A stretch of 64,000 nt of DNA from Liolophura sinensis (Eukaryota > Mollusca > Polyplacophora > Chitonida > Chitonidae): positions 22,313,808 to 22,377,807 of the forward strand of contig NC_088301.1 in NCBI RefSeq assembly GCF_032854445.1. The letters run 5' to 3'. The position numbers were made by a program, and so were the translations under genes. Below the pieces are notes generated by a model that was not told the origin of the DNA, ran no database searches, and saw only the letters and a program-made list of their open reading frames with translations. Below, piece by piece: positions 5,245 to 56,182 of this stretch; the stretch's first letter is position 1, and each line of letters begins with the position of its first letter.

Positions 5245-7230
5245 GGTTAAATTTCCTCCACCTATAAACCTCGGATGAGGCAGATGAGGTTTCCACCAGG
5301 CTCTGATGTCTTTGCCCATAAACCTGGGGATAAGGTTTTGGCCAGAATCTGGTATGTTTCGTCCACTCATTAACCTGACCAAACCTGATGGTGCAGATGG
5401 GAAACCCTCCACCCATAAAACTGACCGAACCAGGTTCGGTTGGGAAATCCTCCACCCATAAAAATGACCAAACCAGGTTCGACTGGGAAATCCTCCGCCC
5501 ATAAAAATGACCAAACCATGTGCGGATGGGAAATCCTCCACCCATAAACCTGACCAAACCGAGGTGCCGTTGGGAAATCCTCCACCCATAAAACTGACCA
5601 AACCAGGTGCGGATGGGAAATCCTCCACCCATAAACCTGACCAAACCGAGGTGCGGGTGGGAAATCCTCCACCCATAAACCTGACCAAACCAGATGCGGA
5701 TGGGAAATCCTCCACCCGTCAGCCTGACCAAACCATTTGCGGATGGGAAATTCTCCACCCATTAACCTGACCCAACCGAGGTGCGGACGGGAAATCCTCC
5801 ACCCATAAACCAGACCAAACCAGGTGCAGTTGGGAAATACTTCACCCGTTAACTTGACCAAACCAGGTGCGGATGGGAAATTCTCCACCCATAAACCTGA
5901 CCAAACCAGGTGCGGATGGGAAATCCACCACCCATAAACCTGACCAAACCAGGTGCGGATGGGAAATCCTCCACCCGTCGGCCTGACCAAACCATTTGCG
6001 GATGGGAAATTCTCCACCCATGAACCTGACCAAACCGAGGTGCGGATGGGAAATTCTCCTCCCATAAACCTGACCAAACCGAGGTGCGGATGGGAAATCC
6101 TCCACCCATAAACCTGACCAAACCGAGGTGCGGATGGGAAATCCTCCATCCATAAACCTGACCAAACCAGGTGCGGATGGGAAATCCTCCACCCGTTAAC
6201 CTGACCAAACCATTTGCGGATGGGAAATTCTCCACCCATAAACCTGACCAAACCGAGGTGCGGATGGGAAATTCTCCACCCATAAACCTGACCAAACCGA
6301 GGTGCGGATGGGAAATTCTCCACCCATAAACCTGACCAAACCGAGGTGCGGATGGGAAATTCTCCACTCATAAACCTGACCAAACCATTTGCGGGTGGCA
6401 AATCCTCCACATGTTAACCTGACCAAACCAGGTGCGGATGGGAAATCCTCCACCCATAAATCTGACCAAACCATTTGCGGGTGGCAAATCCTCCACATGT
6501 TAACCTGACCAAACCAGATGCGGATGGGAAATCCTCCACCCGTCGGCCTGACCAAACCATTTGCGGATGGGAAATTCTCCACCCATAAACCTGACCAAAC
6601 CGAGGTGCAGATGGGAAATCCTCCACCCATAAACCTGACCAAACCATTTGCGGGTGGGAAATCCTCCACACGTTAACCTGACCAAACCAGATGCGGATGA
6701 GAAATCCTCCACCCATAAACCTGACCAAACCATTTGCGGATGGGAAATTCTCCACCCATAAACCTGACCAAACAGAGGTGCGGATGGAGTTTTGACCGGG
6801 TTCCCAAAATTTTCTTCCACCTATAAACCTGACCATCCCAGGTGTAGACCAGGTTTTCATACACTCATAAACCTGACCATCCCAGGTGTGGACCAGGTTT
6901 TCCTCCTCGCATAAGCCTGACCATTCAAGGTGTGGATGAGGTTTTCCTCCACCCATTAACCTGACCATCCCAGGTGTGGGTGAGGTTTTCCTCCACCCAT
7001 AAACCTGACCATCCCAGGTGTAAATGAGGTTTCCCTCCACCCGTAAACCTGACCATCCCAGGTGTGGGTGAGGTTTTCCTCCACCCATAAACGTGATCAT
7101 TCAAGGTTTGGATGAGGTTTTCCTCCACCCATAAACCTGATCATCCCAGTTGTGGATGAGGTTTTCTCCACCCATAAATCTGACTATCCCTGGTGCAGAT
7201 AAGGTATTCACCGGGGGCTTATACCTTTCC
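5245..7230. repeat. satellite of 43-44-bp units, about 45 copies, two subfamilies
   Basis: The core unit contains GGGAAATCCTCCACCCATAA then ACCTGACCAAACC and GGTGCGGAT. Units are 43 or 44 bp depending on CCAGG versus CCGAGG at the junction, so reading frames shift between copies. The long minus-strand ORFs here (up to 346 codons) are by-products of the array. From about 6790 to 7200 the unit changes to a diverged subfamily with GACCATCCCAGGTGTGGATG and AGGTTTTCCTCC. Left-edge copies (5245-5400) are degenerate. Other markers (ATTTGCGG versus AGGTGCGG; ATTCTCC versus ATCCTCC) mix among copies. Confidence 0.9.
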
Positions 7231-19202: not shown

Positions 19203-22200
19203 TTAGAACAAGTCATAGAAATAGTCCAGTCCTTGTCCGAGTTCCCAGATGGAAATGCCGGTATTGAGCTCTTGTGCCAGCCCCAGTCTCTGCTGTATGG
19301 AGTACAGAGTGGGGTAATACACTTTGTGGTTGCCGTCATTCGCTCTGTAACAGAATTACATACACTGTATCACACACTGAACATCAGAAGAAAAAAAATC
19401 CGAACAGAAAGACTAAAAACTGAAGCTACCACACGCTGGTCCACTTCGACAGAATGGAGTATCCTAGTGATTAACATGCACTTTTGTGGACGAAATTTTA
19501 GGTCAATTAGGGTAAGTCGATTTTAACGATCATTTAGGGAATGCAATGTCTGCATCAATTAGGATAAATCTGCTGGTGGACTAATGTTGATAACTAATGT
19601 CAACTAATGTTGACTATTGTTTTACTGGCATTTAGAAGTTGGCACGGAAGTACACTAGACAAGGCATTACTTATGAATTTACAACTTCTTGGTTTATTGT
19701 CACGACGTTTCGATGCAAATATTAGCATCGCTGTCAAGTGAATGATTGACTAGTAATGTTGACTATTGTTTTAATGTTATTGTATGTTAAATGTGATGAC
19801 AAAACAGGTGAGGTAAATTGACAAGTGTATTCAACGGTTACGTGAGACCATTTGCCAATTATAACCCTGTTGTCGCCGCTCTGGTTTTACTATCTAAACT
19901 GTATTAAATTGTCTTTTTTTTATATACACACACCAAACGAAAGAAATACAGACCATAACTTCGACGCCAAAAGGCACAATGTCCTTCTTGTGTTATGTCA
20001 CATTCATTGCATAAGATAAGTTTCATTTTAGCATTAGATTTGTTGACAATCAAGGCATGCAATTATTATAATGACTGCTAATGTCGCGGTACTGCTGAGA
20101 TACCTCTGACACTAGTTGGGTAAAACTTGATCACTTTGATTAAAGCCCAGGTAAAGTCTGGCACAAAAAAATCAAACATGGGGTATAAAATTGCTACCAG
20201 TGAATGTAAAACAACTGCTAAATGTTTAAAACTTACTCTGAATATACACACTGGAATTTATGCATTTATAAAATACGCATTCCATAGTTCAACAACAACT
20301 TGAATACAGGTGACACTTACTTGTATTCAATCACATGCTCCGCCTCGTTTTCGTTCCAGGTGAATTTGGGCTTGTGTCGTTTGAGAATTTCAATGTACCT
20401 GATAACGAAATAAAGATTCTGAGAGCATAAAGTTCAAAATGAAATAAGAGATGTATATTTCAATTTTTATGATATATGAGGGTTACATGAAAATACCAAA
20501 ACAGGAAATTTTTGTATATGTATGTACATTTTTACTGTTTACTGCAGTCTAAATTAATACAACATTTTCTGACAGGTCGTGATGTGTACTACCATGACTG
20601 TTAAACGCTGGTGCATATGCAAGGTTACATATGGGGGTTACATGAAAATACCAAAACAGGAAATTTTTGTATATGTATACATTTTTACTGTTTACTGCAG
20701 TCTAAATTAATACAACATTTTCTGACAGGTCGTGATGTGTACTACCATGACTGTTAAACGCTGGAGCATATGCAAGGTTACATATGGGGGTTACATGAAA
20801 ATACCAAAACAGGAAATTTTTGTATATGTATGTACATTTTTACTGTTTACTGCAGGCTAAATTAATACAACATTTTCTGACAGGTCGTGATGTGTACTAC
20901 CATGACTGTTTAACGCTGGAGCATATGCAAGGTTACATATGGGGGTTACACGAAAATACCAAAACAGGAAATTTTTGTATATGTATGTACATTTTTACTG
21001 TTTACTGGAGGCTAAATTAATACAACATTTTCTGACAGGTCGTGATGTGTACTACCATGACTGTTTAACGCTGGAGCATATGCAAGGTTACATATGGGGG
21101 TTACATGAAAATACCAAAACAGGAAATTTTTGTATATGTATGTACATTTTTACTGTTTACTGGAGGCTAAATTAATACAACATTTTCTGACAGGTCGTGA
21201 TGTGTACTACCATGACTGTTAAACGCTGGAGCATATGCAAGGTTACATATGGGGGTTACATGAAAATACCAAAACAGGAAATTTTTGTATATGTATGTAC
21301 ATTTTTACTGTTTACTGCAGGCTAAATTAATACAACATTTTCTGACAGGTCGTGATGTGTACTACCATGACTGTTTAACGCTGGAGCATATGCAAGGTTA
21401 CATATGGGGGTTACATGAAAATACCAAAACAGGAAATTTTTGTATATGTATGTACATTTTTACTGTTTACTGCAGTCTAAATTAATACAACATTTTCTGA
21501 CAGGTCGTGATGTGTACTACCATGACTGTTTAACGCTGGAGCATATGCAAGGTGGCGAGTTTTCATCCAAACTGTGCCGTTTCTATCCACCAGAATTCTG
21601 TGGGTGGAAATCTATCCTTTTTTTTAAAAAAAAAATCAGGTTGTAGAAAAAATATGATATATGAAATTAAAACCGGATGCGGAGATTCAATGCGATTTAT
21701 GTACATGGATATATATGGTAGGTTCATAATTACATTGCCCTTCCACGCAACTTACAGGGAATGAGACCTGCACTGAGGTCATCTGTAACAGAAAATAAAA
21801 CTCACTGATGAGACACAATCGGTCCTCCACCTCCTGGGTAAAAGTCATTCCCATAAAAGTTCAACCCTAACAATAGTTTCTGTCTCTCTGGTGCCCGATC
21901 GTCCGGTACTAGGTTCTCCACACAACGTCTTACCCAGTCGATAGGGCTGTTTGGACCAGGGCTATGTAATGTAAATGTAAATGTTAAATGTGATGGCAAC
22001 ACAGAATCGCAGCCAAAGTGCCACGTGACTTTAGGCTCATGAAACTTGTTCGAAGATAAAACGATCAAGTCATTCTAAATCAGTGACGTCTAATACACTC
22101 CAATTAACATCACTGTGTTTGTTTTACCTAATTTTGCTGAAGCCACGGTGCTACGAGACTTTAATGAAATTAAATGAAAAGTTATACTAAAACCCTAACT

Positions 22201-25200
22201 CAGGTGAACTGACAGGAGGCCAGATTTGACCGAATACGTGTGACCATTTGCCAACTTGTAACACTCTTACGTATAGCTTTTTCTCCCCAGGCTGTAGTCT
22301 TTTGTATTATAACACAATATAGTTAATGCCTTTAATATTTCATCGTAGCACATACGTGGACACAAGTATACTGAACTTTTACATATGCCTCAGCATATAC
22401 AAGTATAGGTCTTCCATGGTTAGTTAAGAAATTTATGACCTTAAATTCTGAAGTGGTGGTAAGTTGCACTTCAGATTCAAGGGCTCACGTTACAAAAATC
22501 AGCAAGCGTTCGAATTACCAAATCTCAGAAGTTTACTCAGATTTTCTTACACGAAATCATCTCTGCACGAAACTGATCAAAGCCTCAAACATCATGAAAA
22601 AAAAAGTTCTTACCTGTTTGGATTGGAATAGTCATACGTCATTAGACTGAAACCGTCAATGACTGTTGATAAAGCGTCGAAGTCAGACTTCTGAAACATT
22701 CCCTGGACGTTGCTGTAACATAGAATACATCAATGTATGCCCTGAATTTAGCAATGGGTTTATATATATTCCACGTTCCTTCAATACCAACGCAGCTTGG
22801 ATCAGGAATGTCTCGTTCGAAGTGCCCGTTCACTTAACGACTGCTGCATTTGCCCAATGGTTGCGGCTTCTTCGAAGAGGTAGTCGCGCCTTTTGACCAA
22901 TCACATGCGAATGTGAAAAAGTAGGTGGAATTCGATGTTTTCTCCTTGAAATCTTTCTCCGTTGTTTTTTTTAACGCAGGTTGTCTATATATAGCAGTGG
23001 TTTGGTACAGTGAAGATATAATAGACCAAATCCACTGCTATGCATGGTAAACAATGTATGGAGATAAAACATTTCCGTTACCTTGAAGTAGTTAAAAAGT
23101 GAACCAAGAACCATTTGCTGAATATTTCGGTGGATGGGAAACGTTATCCTGATCCGACGAACATTCTCTAAACATGCCAATAGATTTACCATCTCAATTA
23201 TCTCTCCATACAAAGCGACTGCGATATCAAATTGACGACAACCTACGGAGGGTCGTGGGTTTCCCCCGGGCTCTGCCCGGTTTCCTCCCACCATAATGCT
23301 GATCGCCGTGGTATAAGTGACATACTTTTGAGAACACCGTGAAACACCAATGAAATAAATAACCAAATCAAACTGATGACACATGCAGAAACCCCATTGT
23401 GATTTACATTTTCATTCTTGCACTGGTGTCTCCATATATACGCTTCTACAGGTGGTTCTGTCAGAGATTTGTCGCCCCATGTAAACTCAGGAGCAAGTCT
23501 ATAGCCAATAAGATTATACATGATAACGGCTTACCCTTTATATAAAGGAGGAGGTATCACCAGGATAAGGGTCTTCTTCTTGGCGTGGAAGCTTTCTGCC
23601 ATGTGTTCCAGGAAATGCACAAGTTCTCTGTTAGGGGATTTTAAACGGGACAAACACAAATTCATTCACTGTAAATGTATATTTATACTATTTACATTGC
23701 CACCTTGCATCTTGTTGAATTTCCTTTTTCTATATACCCTGGTTTATATATACATAGTACTTATTATAACGCGTGTGTATTAAGTATATTTATTTATTTA
23801 TTTGATTGGTGTTTTACGCCGTACTCAAGAATATTTCACTTATACGACGGCGGCCAGCATTATGGTGGGTGGAAACCGGGCACAGCCCGGGGGAAACCCA
23901 CGGCCATCCGCAGGTTGCTGGCAGACCTTCCCACGTACGGCCGGAGAGGAAGCCAGCATTAGCTGGACTTGAACTCACAGCGACCGCATTGGTGAGAGAC
24001 TCCTGGGTCATTACGCTGCGCTAGCGCGATAACCAACTGAGCCACGGAGGCCCCCTGCATTAAGTATAAAGTGCACAGATAATTCAACCTATAGACAATT
24101 ATACATATACATGCACATCACAGACCATACGGTACCTTTTCGCCTGGCCTCCGAGCTGTGACCAGATTTCTATGACCGCACCGCCAAACTTTTGTTCCTA
24201 CAAAAAACATGTCTACGTCAGTTTAAAGGACAGACGTTTCTTGAAGCGTATTTATTGTGAAGTAGCCTTTAGTCAAGTGCACTTCATGTCTCTAAAACAT
24301 GACTCACGAGGGGGCCTCCGCGGTTCAGTTGGTTAGCGCGCTAGCGCAGCGTAATGCCTCAGAAGCCTCTCACCAATGCGGTCGCTTTGAGTTCGAGTCC
24401 AGCTCATGCTAGCTTCTCCGGCCGTATGTGGGAAGGTCTGTCAACAACCTGCGGATGGTCGTGGGTTTCCTCCATCACGTCTTCACAAACCTGTATAGAG
24501 TTAATCATGGTGTCTATACAGTCCTCCATCACGTCTTCACTGACCTGTATAGAGTTAACCATGGTGTCTATACAGTCATACATCACGTCTTCACTCGCCT
24601 GTGTGGAGTTAACCATGGTGTCTATACAGTCATACATCACGTCTTAACCTGTATGGAGTTAATCACGGTGTCTATACAGTCCTCCATCACGTCTTCACTG
24701 AGCTGTATGGAGTAAATCATGGTGTCTATACAGTCCTCCACCACGCCTTCACTGACCTGTATAGAGTTAACCATGGTGTCTATACAGTCCTCCATCACGT
24801 CTTCACTCACCTGTGTGGAGTTAACCATGGTGTCTATACAGTCCTCCATCACGTCTTCACTCACCTGTGTGGAGTTAACCATGGTGTCTATACAGTCCTC
24901 CATCACGTCTTCACTCACCTGTGTGGAGTTAACCATGGTGTCTATACAGTCCTCCATCACGATTTCACTAATCTGTATGAAGTTAATCAAGGTGTCTATT
25001 CAGTCCTCCATCACATCTTCACTCACCTGTGTGGAGTTAACCATGGTGTCTATACAGGCACCCATCACGTTTTCACTGACCTGTGTGAAATTAACCATGG
25101 TGTCTATACAGGCAGCCATCACGCTTTCACTAATCTGTATGAAGTTAACCATGGCGTCTATACAGTCCTCCATCACATCTTTACTGACCTGTATGAAGTT

Positions 25201-28200
25201 AACCATGGCGTCTATACAGTCCTCCATCACGTCTTTACTCACCTGTATAGAGTTAACCATGGTGTCTGTACAGTCCTCCATCACGTCTTCACTGACCTGT
25301 GTGAAGTTAACCATTGTGTCTATACAGTCCTCCATCACGTCTTCACTCACCTGTATGAAGTTAACCATGGTGTCTACAGGGCCCCATCATGTCTTCACTG
25401 ACCTGTAGGGAGTTAACCAAGGTGTTTATACGGTCCTCCAACGCATCTTCACTTACCTGTATGAAGTTAACCATGGTGTCTACACAGTCCTCCATCAAGT
25501 CTTCATTAGTAAACACAGCTTTGTAATCTGCCCCTGTCCACCCATCAAACAAAATCCGAGGAACTGTCAACAAAGAGTTTGGCAGATTGTCGATTACTGA
25601 AATGAATTTTTCGCGCCTGGCGGATAAGTATATTCACCATATTGCAGATGGTAGTTTTTCTTCAAGACCAGAAGCAAAGAAAAACCTCGTCTGTCAGTCT
25701 CGAGAACTGGTACGTACAGGACCTGATAGTATTTTAACACAGTTTTGAGCACAAAAAAAACCTAAAGCGGTTAAGTGCACGTACAGTGTATGTGGTAATT
25801 ATTTGCTCTGGAATGTTTTGAAATACAAACCGGTACATAAACTTCATTCAAGTCCAGGTTATGCCGGCTTTCTGTCTGCACTGGAAGGTCTGTCAGCAAC
25901 ATGCAGATGGCCGTGGGTTTCCTCCAATAATAATGCTGACCACATTGGTACAAGTGAATAATGCTGCGTTCGGTACCACGCCCACGAGACGTATGTTCGA
26001 GTTCACGACATTTGAATCCGCTTCTTTGGCGGATCGTAGATACCACTTATGGACTCGAAAGTTATCTGAAGGATCCAGTTTGTAACCTTCACCTAGGAAA
26101 GTTTCGCAAGGATGCATGAAAAGTACACTAAGATGTCGGCTAACAATTTATAAATCTTCTCATGCCGTAAAACAACAACAGCAAACAAACTACTCGTTGC
26201 AGGCAAAACAGTAGCATGAACTGCCTACGCAGTTGCCATCTTGTTTCGTAGGCACGCCTGGCGAAACTGTCCCAATGATTTGACCAAATTAACGACATGG
26301 ATGATGTTTACGAGGGTTTGAGTCGGGCGTAAACTTATAAACTACATGGATCGATGTAATTATACTTGCCGATCTTGGTGTTCCTTTTGGAAGTGACGTC
26401 TGCAATCCACCCTGTGTACAAGAAAAGGCATAATACCAACTGCTATTACTATGACAGCTTACAATTACATGACAAGCCTTAAATCTGGAACATGCATTTA
26501 TCAAAACGAGCTACGCGCCATAATGCGAATGATGTTCTTACTGACGATAATCACGAACTAAACCTAACTGAGGATGCCCAAATAGAATGGATTGATGGGC
26601 TTTATATCTTGGGAACAACAGCCTTAAGCTTGTCCAGAATCTATATAGATAAGCGCAGATTGGGCGATAAAGTCCATCTCAGTGTGTTCCATCGATCACA
26701 CTCATATAACAAAATAAGATTATTAAAGTGAATATAAACATAGGTAAGATATAGGACACAGTTATCACAGAAAAATATGTAAAGAATTCTACAAAATTTT
26801 GAAAATCGAGAAGAAGTTTAGCATTTGGGACACGCCACTGACGAACAATTCACTCCTAGTAACCATGTTGAAGAAGCCCCTATGAACTTTGCCAATCACT
26901 AGCGCTCAGAGCGTAACGTGGCTGTCACGTCAAAAAACCTATTAGCTCTCGATTGTCAGTGTGGTTTCTTATAGTGGATAGACAAATACTGATGCAACAA
27001 CTGGACTTTGCGGTTAATTTAAGTGTTACACTGATGAATTTTTAGCCACACATTTATGAACAGGGAACTGAGGATGGCTGCCCGAGTCACAATGCGTAGC
27101 CTACATGTTGGGCTGGATAATACAGTAACTTGTCAGGGTGTGCCAATTCGGTCAATGAACCTCAAAGGGAAAGCCAACGATTGTCAGGTGGATGTACATG
27201 TAGCTGCATAGACAGTTTCCTTGTATAAAATAATGTTTACAATCAGAAATTATATTGCAAACGAGATTTACCAGAATCAATTTCACTTTTTATCTGGATG
27301 GGTTATTGCTGGAAGGCCAGATTCTCAATGGAATGGAAAATCAACACGAGTTCTGTCCACATATTCAAAAACGGGAGCACAACGGATTAGTGCTGTACCG
27401 TCCGTTCGGTAAGATTAAAAATCATGGTATTATGACTGCATGGCTAGAAATTTTATTCTTATTTATTCTGGATGCCAATAGCCGTCCATTTAGTATCGTC
27501 ATTTTCAGTTTGTTTGTTTTTTTTGTTTTTTTTTGGGGGGGGGGGGGTTCTGTTCATTTTCAAAGAAGCGCAATTTTGGACACTGAGTCATTTTAAGGAC
27601 ATATGGGAGGGGGATTCTTGTAGATGCATGTATAAACATCGATGATACGGCACACAAAAAAACATTTCAGATGTTGACATTCGTCTTAACTCGATCTTTG
27701 AAATGCGTATGAAGGTATATATGAATAAAGTTCTGGGCGTGTCACCTCTGTCAATGTCGTGGCCGCCTTGCATGACGAAAGCTCCCCCTGGCATCCTCTT
27801 AATCTGCAGCCACACCGGAGAGACGTAGGTGAACTTGGCACCGAACAGTTTGGCCACATCATATCCGTGATTATTCCACTGGAAACAGTATCATGCAATA
27901 TCATCAAGGACACGCTGAACGTAAAATCATTAATACACACGACGTGGGGAGACCCGGAATCAAACACGTGGAACTTGCTGGTCCCGTGTCCGTGTAATGT
28001 GGCTGGGTGAGGTGTCATGGGTGAGGTGTCATGTCTGGTGTCTCCGACATAATGCTTCAATGGCGACAGTGCTTTGGCGGCATTAACGTCGTACTTAACA
28101 ATTTTCCAGGCATATGACGACGAAGGAGTCTTTAGAGTGCATGCACGTGGTATGTGCCTTCTTGTTGCAGGACGGATTTCCACCACTCTTATATCTAGTG

Positions 28201-51660: not shown

Positions 51661-54346
51661 TACAAGAAAACAAAGCTGAAATTTCGAGAGAAAAATCGAA
51701 ATATCGATGGACATAAGGAATTTGAAATATCGACATACCTAAATTGAAATTTGGGGAAAAAATGTAGAAATTTTGGCATCCCACCACCCATAATTTTTTT
51801 CACAATGACACCGGTACCCATTGACATTAACCAGCCTGCAAATGGTTGCGCCCCTGTTTATCTCGCCGATGATATACAACCCATCTCTTCCCCACCCCGA
51901 CTCCCCTACATGCGTTAGTTTGGGAATTTATTTATTACATCGAGATTTTCATTGCAAACATTAATTGTAACTACTGTTGCTTTTTTGTTTTCCTCAAATT
52001 GTCATAAACATGCAGTCATACTAAAACCGGTTAAGGCGTTGAACAACAATCATATAAATAAATACAGGATTAGAGCTGACACCGAGATATAACGTTGTCA
52101 CATGACCGTGTATGCGTAACTGTCACTGTAATATACATATATATAGAGAGAGGCGGTGGCGGTTAACACTAAAATGTCGCTGTCAGCACTCCTGTGGGTT
52201 TTATCGCTGAAAAATGGAAGTGGGGCATAATTATGTTGTGCTATTTTAGTGACTGCATGGCCTTCCAGTATACTATTAGACCGATCCCTCAAGATCTGGT
52301 AACGTTTAATCTTTTTGATGATAATGGAACAGCCATACGCACAACTATAGCCACAGCCCTCACATTTAATATACGACTGCAGCTCCGACGAGGCTCAGTG
52401 ATATGTTGTAAATTATTCACTATTGCCGACTATGGCATGCACTCATTTCTGGCACTAAAACACGGGTTTTATTTGTTGTTATTTTAAAAGCCGCAAACCA
52501 GAGCCCCACGTGTAATGTTCTATCGCACCTTGAGTTATTAAGTCTGTATATATCGCCGGTTATATATTGCTCCTGGCATATATCCCGCGAGACTTCGCGT
52601 GATGTGAGCAGATGATAATCGAAGTCCATCTATACGAATGCTGTCCATAAGTTCACACAGAGCGGGAGCTAAACAAATAAATATACTATACTATACATAA
52701 CATATAATTTGTGGAAATGGATTGATTCCATGGCAGCATATAACTCCTTAAAGTGAGTAGACTATGCACAGTTTCTGTCCGGTTTCCAACAAAATATCTC
52801 GGTAATCTCGTCATAATCTCATAACGACGTTACATTCTCGTCTGTGTCTCTATCAAGTCTAATCAAGCGTTGGTTACGTCGTTCACCTGGTACTTACAGA
52901 GTCTGTTCGTATCCGCGGTAAAAACGACGATAAGTGGACGACGGCTTCAATACATTGGACTTCCGTTGGAACCCACCAATTCATATGGCCCGTGAGTCAT
53001 GACATAACTGGAAAAAATAAGTATGGAGGTAAGTAATAATCTTAAAGGAAAATGGATAAATAATGAAATAAATGAATAAATAAATTAGTACTGACTGTCA
53101 TAAAACGTCCTACTTGTACCCGAGACAGAATGTCTAATCGTGGTACACGCTTCAAATTACCAGACTTCAAAATCGTCATTATTTGTATCCCTTTTCGCTC
53201 GATGTGTGGGACAAGTACAGATAAGCCTGATGTCAGTATACTGTGACTTGATGGGCCCCCATGTCTGCTGTATCCGGCATGGAATTCCTGGAAAGCAGTG
53301 TAATAAACATATCGGCGTTGAGTTGTCGTGAAACGACCGAAAAATTTTGGACCGACGCATGTTATCGCTGCTTTGGTTCACCTCATAAACTGTGTCATGT
53401 TTCTGTTGTCACTGCATTGGTTCACCTCACACACAGTGCCATGTTTCTGCTGTCACTGCATTGGTTCACCGCACACAACATGTCATTGTTTCTGTTGTCA
53501 CTGATTTGGCTTCTTTGTTTCTGTTGTTTTCTTTTGTATTTTGGTTTATCGCTTTCACGTTTCTGTACATCGAGCTAGCTCGCCGGCAAATATTAAGGAC
53601 ACAGCGCTCTGGGACGTTGTTAAGTTTCTACGTTTTTATTGTTGGTAGTGTTGAAACATTGATTTATGTGGATAGTTGGTCGCCATTTGTCCTTGGTAAA
53701 GCTTGCTCACAATGATCCATGTGGCGCACTGTCTGATTCTCTGAAACACGTGGTTGTGGTATTTATTTGCTGTGAAGTGTAAGGCCTCGAAAACTTATGT
53801 TAGTGCCTTTCACAATTCTGCTGATTGATAACCTGGGTGCTCAGTGTTTGCACAGTTGCCATGGTTACTATGAAATTCTGACGCCGCTAAAGGTGGTGTG
53901 GAAAATACGACAGATCGAAGTTTATTTTCGAGAAAACTGCAAGGTTCTAGCCCATAGAGAATGAAAACAAAGGAAAAAGGCGGCACAGAAGTGCGATGCA
54001 GACTTGTTAAAGGTAGCAGAGCAGAGGAGATTGTGAAACATCAAAGTCTAATGCATTCAACTATCGACCTGAGAGAAAGACATTGCAGTATTATTAAATC
54101 AAGTGTGCTCAGTAGTTACGTTGAACATACGGGATACTGTATGTCAATGTCGAGTATGCAATGATGTCAAACTGAACCGAAAGGACTACACTGTAAAGAC
54201 AAAATCAAAGTTGACCGACTTGCTGGACTTTGGGGAAAGAAATACTGCACAAATATGTCGACTGTAGTCAAATTTAGGACTGCACAGAAAGAACCGCAGT
54301 ATAAAACATAATGAGTTATTCGACTGAAAGGAACGGGCTTAACGAA
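51661..54346. other. gene-poor region
   Basis: No gene is recognised. At 53373-53510 there is a three-copy repeat of about 45 bp (TTGGTTCACCTCA...ATGTTTCTGTTGTCACTGCA). ORFs at 52194-52487, 53261-53715 and 53961-54164 (plus) have no domain I recognise. From about 54190 faint resemblance to the following 51-bp unit appears (GACTTGCTGGACTTTGGGGA). Confidence 0.4.
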
Positions 54347-56182
54347 ATGGGGTACGATCAATTGTTAGACTTAACAGCAGGGAATATTGTGCCCAAAATG
54401 GGGTACGATCAATTGTTAGACTTAACAGCAGGGAATATTGTGCCCAAAATGGGGTACGATCAATTGTTAGACTTAACAGCAGGGAATATTGTGCCCAAAA
54501 TGAGGTACGATCAATTGTTAGACTTAACAGCAGGGAATATTGTGCCCAAAATGGGGTACGATCAATTGTTAGACTTAACAGCAGGGAATATTGTACGCAA
54601 AATGGGGTACGATCAATTGTTGGACTTAACAGCAGGGAATATTGTACCCAAAATGGGGTACGATCAATTGTTAGACTTAAAAGCAGGGAATATTGTGCCC
54701 AAAATGGGGTACGATCAATTGTTGGACTTAACAGCAGGGAATATTGTGCCCAAAATGGGGTACGATCAATTGTTAGACTTAACAGCAGGGAATATTGTGC
54801 CCAAAATGGGGTACGATCAATTGTTAGACTTAACAGCAGGGAATATTGTACCCAAAATGGGGTACGATCAATTGTTAGACTTAACAGCAGGGAATATTGT
54901 ACCCAAAATGGGGTACGATCAATTGTTAGACTTAACAGCAGGGAATATTGTACCCAAAATGGGGTACGATCAATTGTTGGACTTAACAGCAGGGAATATT
55001 GTACCCAAAATGGGGTACGATCAATTGTTAGACTTAACAGCAGGGAATATTGTACCCAAAATGGGGTACGATCAATTGTTAGACTTAACAGCAGGGAATA
55101 TTGTACCCAAAATGGGGTACGATCAATTGTTGGACTTAACGGCAGGGAATATTGTACCCAAAATGGGGTACGATCAATTGTTAGACTTAACAGCAGGGAA
55201 TATTGTACGCAAAATGGGGTACGATCAATTGTTAGACTTAACAGCAGGGAATATTGTACCCAAAATGGGGTACGATCAATTGTTAGACTTAACAGCAGGG
55301 AATATTGTGCCCAAAATGGGGTACGATCAATTGTTGGACTTAACAGCAGGGAATATTGTGCCCAAAATGGGGTACGATCAATTGTTAGACTTAACAGCAG
55401 GGAATATTGTGCCCAAAATGGGGTACGATCAATTGTTAGACTTAACAGCAGGGAATATTGTACCCAAAATGGGGTACGATCAATTGTTAGACTTAACAGC
55501 AGGGAATATTGTACCCAAAATGGGGTACGATCAATTGTTAGACTTAACAGCAGGGAATATTGTACCCAAAATGGGGTACGATCAATTGTTAGACTTAACA
55601 GCAGGGAATATTGTACCCAAAATGGGGTACGATCAATTGTTAGACTTAACAGCAGGGAATATTGTACCCAAAATGGGGTACGATCAATTGTTGGACTTAA
55701 CAGCAGGGAATATTGTGCCCAAAATGGGGTACGATCAATTGTTAGACTTAACAGCAGGGAATATTGTGCCCAAAATGGGGTACGATCAATTGTTAGACTT
55801 AACAGCAGGGAATATTGTGCCCAAAATGAGGTACGATCAATTGTTAGACTTAACAGCAGGGAATATTGTGCCCAAAATGGGGTACGATCAATTGTTGGAC
55901 TTAACAGCAGGGAATATTGTGCCCAAAATGGGGTACGATCAATTGTTAGACTTAGCAGCAGGGAATATTGTGCCCAAAATGGGGTACGATCAATTGTTAG
56001 ACTTAACAGCAGGGAATATTGTACCCAAAATGGGGTACGATCAATTGTTAGACTCAGCAGCAGGGAATATTGTACCCAAAATGGGGTACGATCAATTGTT
56101 GGACTTAACAGCAGGGAATATTGTACCCAAAATGGGGTACGATCAATTGTTGGACTTAATTGCAGGAAACAGTGTTTACAAC
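54347..56182. repeat. 51-bp minisatellite, 36 copies with no length change, open on both strands
   Basis: Units start with ATG at 54347 and every 51 bases to 56132 (35 exact steps). Each encodes MGYDQLLDLTAGNIVPK on the plus strand. The array therefore gives a 625-codon plus ORF (54311-56188) and a 619-codon minus ORF (56198-54339). Variation is limited: TTA/TTG before GAC, GTG/GTA before CCC, GGG/AGG at codon 2 (units 4 and 30), CGC for CCC (units 5 and 17). I see no splice-bounded exon, no codon bias and no known domain. Double-strand openness is an automatic result of a stop-free unit whose length is a multiple of 3, so I classify it as satellite rather than gene. A real repeat protein cannot be excluded without RNA evidence. 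Confidence 0.93.

Follow-up and report, generated by a model that had tools for sequence, protein, structure and literature searches.

A splice-donor minisatellite, probably neutral, at the border of exon 5 and intron 5 of CHID1 in the chiton Liolophura sinensis

The stretch analysed here, hereafter the window, comprises 64,000 nucleotides of the chiton Liolophura sinensis (assembly GCF_032854445.1, contig NC_088301.1, positions 22,313,808 to 22,377,807) and contains on its minus strand CHID1, the gene of a chitinase domain-containing protein 1. The greater part of intron 5 of this gene is occupied by a tandem array, in which the end of exon 5 and the adjoining 5' splice site are copied again and again. 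The array is very probably a neutral minisatellite, which was born at a pre-existing exon-intron border and left the original donor dominant. Its parts are listed below in window positions, with the splice site marked by a slash; donor scores were obtained throughout with a position weight matrix of approximate human frequencies.

24468..25456, minus strand: CHID1 intron 5 array; the full units number 18, with lengths of 54 bp (sixteen), 52 bp and 50 bp (one each), and a partial unit adds about 23 bp
25451..25456, minus strand: original donor D0, CAG/GTAAGT, score 12.9, used in the annotated protein
25403..25456, minus strand: unit 1, kept in frame (+18 amino acids) if donor D1 is used
25402, minus strand: donor D1, CAG/GTCAGT, score 8.6 versus 12.9 for D0
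25351..25402, minus strand: unit 2, 52 bp, containing a TAA with its first base at 25363
24757..24918, minus strand: units 11-13, the most homogeneous part of the array, each with 98% identity to the consensus
24599..24648, minus strand: unit 16, 50 bp, in which a 4-bp deletion leaves a weak CAG/GTTAAG
24309..24473, plus strand: tRNA-like short interspersed element (SINE), antisense to the gene, 3' part missing, joined to the distal end of the array

Intron 5 extends from 25456 to 24198 (1259 nt), of which the array fills the first 989 nt or so. Tandem Repeats Finder (TRF) reported a repeat at 24468-25505 with a period of 54, 19.3 copies, 87% matches and a score of 1467, that is, head-to-tail copies of a unit tens of bases long, as in a minisatellite. 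Each unit begins at a donor position and reads, in gene orientation, GTNAGT followed by GAAGACGTGATGGAGGACTGTATAGACACCATGGTTAACTCCATACAG, the former being the six donor bases and the latter 48 nt resembling the end of exon 5. The exon closes with 48 nt (25504-25457) that agree with the unit consensus at 45 of 48 positions (94%), and this copy aligns without gaps to CHID1 of human and ten further species, which identifies the exon as the source and the array as the copy. Elsewhere in the window nothing is clearly related to the 54-bp unit (best match E 0.74 over 26 bp). A preliminary description of this DNA had proposed an array of the exon 5 end with its 5' splice site, seeded at the exon-intron border and carrying the donor along, with the outermost copy as the true exon, and all of this is borne out. 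Similarity to the exon 5 end is lowest in unit 1 (79%), and neighbours in the array resemble each other more than shuffled units do (P 0.0096).

The donor position itself is retained to differing degrees. GT is kept at 14 of the 18 extra unit starts, while the remaining four read AT, AT, CT and GC. The retained sites comprise six CAG/GTGAGT (12.1), six CAG/GTCAGT (8.6), one GTTAAG (3.7) and one GTTTGT (5.6), so that 12 of 18 are plausible donors with a score of at least 8, six of these 12 bearing an unfavourable C at +3. The figure of about 18 extra donor sites given beforehand was hence too high; the dozen usable sites also described stand as far as CAG/GTGAGT and CAG/GTCAGT are concerned, whereas CAG/GTAAGT, named alongside them, occurs in the array only at D0 and in none of the extra copies. 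Of the 3972 GT sites that the minus strand of the window contains, eight score at least 11.5, and seven of these eight lie in the array (D0 included), which argues that the concentration of donors is not due to chance. With unit 1 beginning at D0 and 12 of 18 further unit starts scoring at least 8, the array has the structure of a donor-site minisatellite.

Splicing from D0 reproduces the annotated protein of the species (P0001). Use of D1, the only extra donor in frame, would add 18 residues in an open frame, and from D2 to D18 (17 of 17) the extended exon shifts frame in the 52-bp unit 2 and reaches the TAA at 25363; the prediction that the first downstream donor would insert 18 residues in frame was correct. 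Transcripts from the later donors, with their premature stop, are expected targets of nonsense-mediated decay. In an alignment of homologues (120 listed of 1653 found, P0001 included) the 18-residue insert was not found at the exon 5-6 junction, which has the standard length in 119 of the 120, the exception being P0119.

The following course of events is proposed. The last 48 nt of exon 5 and the first six of intron 5 would have been duplicated in tandem, the copies would have spread into the intron via slippage or unequal exchange, and a later deletion may have joined the far end of the array to the SINE. The pre-mRNA would then carry about 12 extra plausible 5' splice sites, in the presence of which D0, which has the highest score, is met first and closes the 107-nt exon, would be spliced to exon 6, the array being removed with the intron. 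D1 would be used in mere traces, yielding a protein with 18 more residues, and transcripts from later donors would decay.

Neutral turnover is suggested by the way in which the units differ. Variation at the donor columns +1 and +2 was 0.11 versus 0.08 for random column pairs, and that of +1 to +6 together 0.15 versus 0.07 for other columns, +3 being the most variable column of all (0.61); the four columns deleted in unit 16 were counted as gaps in this analysis, although the weak donor motif remains there. Changes among units comprised 20 synonymous and 59 non-synonymous ones against 28 and 134 possible, and were spread evenly across codon positions (29, 25, 25). Neither column variation nor codon changes thus gave a clear sign that donor or frame is maintained across the array units, a pattern that would fit minisatellite turnover without selection. 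A coding role of the array was rejected in view of the frame shift and stop in unit 2 and of changes that look neutral. A hairpin role of the units was likewise dropped, as their folding was not clearly better than that of shuffled sequences, either as RNA (z -0.86, 0.03 and -1.32) or as DNA (z 0.64 and 0.40). The functions suggested in the preliminary description, namely a splice-site buffer, a source of protein-length variants or a brake on splicing, find no support: conservation at the donor columns does not exceed that at others, P0001 uses D0, and 17 of the 18 extra donors lead to a stop.

Several observations weigh against an array that is wholly neutral and unused. Every one of the 18 full units ends in CAG, an invariance that in comparison with random columns is only marginal (P 0.08), and in a donor core of eight positions, from which +3 was excluded, variation is slightly below that of random columns (0.035 versus 0.080, P 0.11), leaving room for a weak constraint on the exon-side CAG. 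Moreover, the score of 12.1 reached by six extra donors is nearly that of D0 (12.9) and exceeds the scores of six other CHID1 donors (4.3-11.3; exons 2, 3, 6, 7, 8 and 10), and with such strength some use of them would be expected.

As an alternative, the array might be functional in that a minor CHID1 isoform, longer by 18 residues, arises from D1, D2 and those beyond it lead to a premature stop and decay, and array length tunes the output. D1 does preserve an open reading frame, D2, situated 106 nt downstream, has a high score (12.1), and according to an excerpt of PMC4526556 human IFI6 employs two of its downstream repeat units as donors. Yet CAG/GTCAGT at D1 is the weaker site, an isoform with the insert was not found among the listed homologues, unit 1, which it would retain, is the least similar to the exon end, and clear maintenance of donors was not seen; we therefore consider such a role unlikely. 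Another view departs from the resemblance of the array to recursive splice sites, as acceptor and donor motifs meet at each CHID1 unit junction. Recursive sites, or ratchet points, are found in very long introns and were demonstrated via RNA intermediates, whereas intron 5 has only 1259 nt and is known here from its sequence. In a formal sense, a unit with its GT intact amounts to a short GT...AG intron and its junction to a potential recursive site, and ACAG/GTNAGT junctions serving as both 3' and 5' splice sites would allow the intron to be removed in 54-nt steps that each restore a donor and leave no trace in the mRNA. As acceptors the 18 unit ends reach 4.3-8.8, values also spanned by the ten real CHID1 acceptors (-3.6 to 10.2), and at 13 junctions (D0 included) an acceptor motif of 4.3-8.8 is joined to a donor motif of 8.6-12.9. 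These scores again come from a matrix of approximate human frequencies, a point against this view. Dual sites were counted with a donor score of at least 8 and an acceptor score of at least that of the weakest real site (-3.6), or of at least 4, a cut-off set after the scores had been seen and passed by 9 of 10 real acceptors. The stricter cut-off left 14 dual sites on the window's minus strand, the array accounting for 13 once D0 is counted, and five on the plus strand; the laxer one left 24 on the minus strand, to which the array again contributed 13, and 23 on the plus strand of the 64 kb, so that dual sites as such are not rare. The sole branch-like motif, TTAAC, stands about 11 nt away from the AG (by eye), introns of 54 nt would be very short, and at 1259 nt intron 5 does not need recursion. 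Stepwise removal is accordingly held to be very improbable, and quite improbable is also a ladder of dual sites at work, in which entry at any of about 13 junctions and hops of 54 nt would let array length set the shares of normal, +18 and decaying CHID1 mRNA.

Two further explanations concern origin instead of use. A dispersed satellite may have landed beside exon 5 and come to resemble the exon through conversion or by chance, but no full-length match was present elsewhere in the window and the exon copy can be aligned gap-free with CHID1 from distant animals, so that we give this scarcely any credence. Even less can be given to the birth of a new intron through tandem duplication of an AGGT-bearing exon segment (Rogers model). 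It would agree with most units running GT...AG and being derived from coding sequence, and such an intron would have its splice sites inside the duplicated segments; here the acceptor in use, that of exon 6 at 24197, lies outside the array, and the CHID1 model of the frog Gastrophryne carolinensis (P0119) breaks at the same position. It contains 147 extra residues, starting with VSK exactly at the exon 5-6 junction, and is probably a gene model running into the frog intron. If read as such, the position of intron 5 is ancient and shared. Intron birth by duplication was rejected on account of this apparently old position. As the frog model breaks at the same place and the acceptor lies outside the array, the intron is probably older than the array, and the neutral minisatellite favoured here looks to have grown from an old exon border.

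At its far end the array adjoins the truncated SINE. Six other copies of this element aligned from the window extend beyond the point of truncation, and TCCTCC is common to array and SINE at their join (by eye), which suggests a fusion by microhomology deletion. No Rfam matches were obtained in the window at gathering scores, and the likeness of the element to tRNA is our own reading of the letters. Another copy (23889-24056) is 88.7% similar to that at 24309-24473 and in opposite orientation, the two standing on either side of the 62-nt exon 6, the donor of which is weak (4.3); pairing of both copies in RNA could favour skipping or circularisation of this exon.

The gene model underlying these results consists of 11 exons on the minus strand of the window, yields all 393 residues of P0001 and the stop, and contains nine introns with GT and one with GC. 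Exon ends were mostly searched within a few bases for their fit to P0001; those of exon 5 were set beforehand. The exons are as follows.

33472-33347, minus strand: CHID1 exon 1
31668-31525, minus strand: CHID1 exon 2
27878-27746, minus strand: CHID1 exon 3
26411-26370, minus strand: CHID1 exon 4
25563-25457, minus strand: CHID1 exon 5, 107 nt, ends fixed beforehand; the 48 nt at its end (25504-25457) form the source copy, unit 0
24197-24136, minus strand: CHID1 exon 6, 62 nt, acceptor TTTTTTGTAG, outside the array
23627-23535, minus strand: CHID1 exon 7
22712-22614, minus strand: CHID1 exon 8
21961-21806, minus strand: CHID1 exon 9
20398-20321, minus strand: CHID1 exon 10
19344-19203, minus strand: CHID1 exon 11

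The labels of exon 5 and intron 5 used in the preliminary description were correct, with the donor at 25456 and the next exon at 24197-24136. In a protein search with the partial translation the top match was 'chitinase domain-containing protein 1-like [Liolophura sinensis]', i.e. P0001, the cluster of which holds a single member sequence without an isoform label. Human CHID1 (3bxw in the PDB) matches the translation across the exon 5-6 junction without a gap (E 2.6e-8) and independently supports the identity of the gene. Exon 4, directly upstream of exon 5, is closed by a GC donor, TCG/GCAAGT (26364-26411, minus strand), and is hence followed by a GC-AG intron. A published HiFi assembly of Liolophura was first assigned to L. 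japonica (PMC11068029) and its species name later corrected to L. sinensis (PMC12441733).

Tandem arrays are not confined to intron 5. Nine arrays of at least 230 bp, that of intron 5 included, together take up some 7.0 kb of the window by a manual sum of the TRF output, which indicates that array growth is common in this region. Intron 9 of CHID1 harbours a 155-bp array (20474-21553; 7 copies, 98% matches) about 75 bp from exon 10, and related arrays of 43 bp and 44 bp with about 42 copies together at 5362-7209 likewise mark the window as rich in minisatellites. A 51-bp array at 54345-56166 (35.7 copies, 97% matches) is open in three frames (open reading frames of 622-627 amino acids between stops); as 51 = 3 x 17 and the unit is free of stops, the open frames are no evidence of coding.

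Among described systems the CHID1 array can be placed as a splice-donor minisatellite, probably neutral, and a variant of the kind represented by human IFI6 (G1P3, 6-16). The IFI6 minisatellite reportedly starts at the donor of an exon, as does that of CHID1, and in both the units carry donor motifs; its unit is said to be about 12 bp, whereas that of CHID1 is 54 bp with 48 nt of coding exon, and the genes are unrelated. The title of Turri, Cuin and Porter (1995) has it provide multiple splice donors, and PMC4526556 reports, in the excerpt mentioned, two downstream repeat units used as donors and three mRNA species. Donor use is thus reported for IFI6, whereas the extra donors of CHID1 are candidates, and the preliminary description erred in knowing of no named system of this kind. 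Excerpts of three further papers describe related structures. Minisatellites at exon-intron boundaries in human segmental duplications may create novel introns, with repeat-retaining transcripts reported (PMC2812944); these too are internal tandem repeats at such a boundary, but in human paralogues and with units of 30 bp x 4 on average, compared with 54 bp x 18 beside an apparently old intron in CHID1. Tandem duplication of AGGT segments was described as a source of introns for ATP2A1 under the Rogers model (PMC4974935), and 24-nt repeats occur in introns of fission yeast SPOG_01682 and SOCG_00815 (PMC3629103). Tandem copies of an exon segment with splice signals lie in introns here as well, but in those cases a new intron arises, whereas in CHID1 an existing one was filled from its 5' border. 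Among the literature matches listed, which were excerpts of open-licence papers, neither this array of the chiton nor any other built from an exon tail of whole codons with its donor was found.

To our knowledge, competition among near-identical 5' splice sites has mostly been studied in artificial constructs. The CHID1 array offers such a competition in nature, with a dozen similar donors in one intron at one apparently ancient exon border, and permits a clean test of whether the winner is the first donor, the strongest or the one nearest to the acceptor. Public RNA data exist for the species, with five tissues sequenced, namely digestive gland, foot, gill, gonad and heart (BioProject PRJNA973839; PMC11068029), and could settle the competition of donors in CHID1. 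As for other chitons, five genomes are mentioned in PMC12005716. Beyond this, the array could show how a gene tolerates a minisatellite at a splice site.

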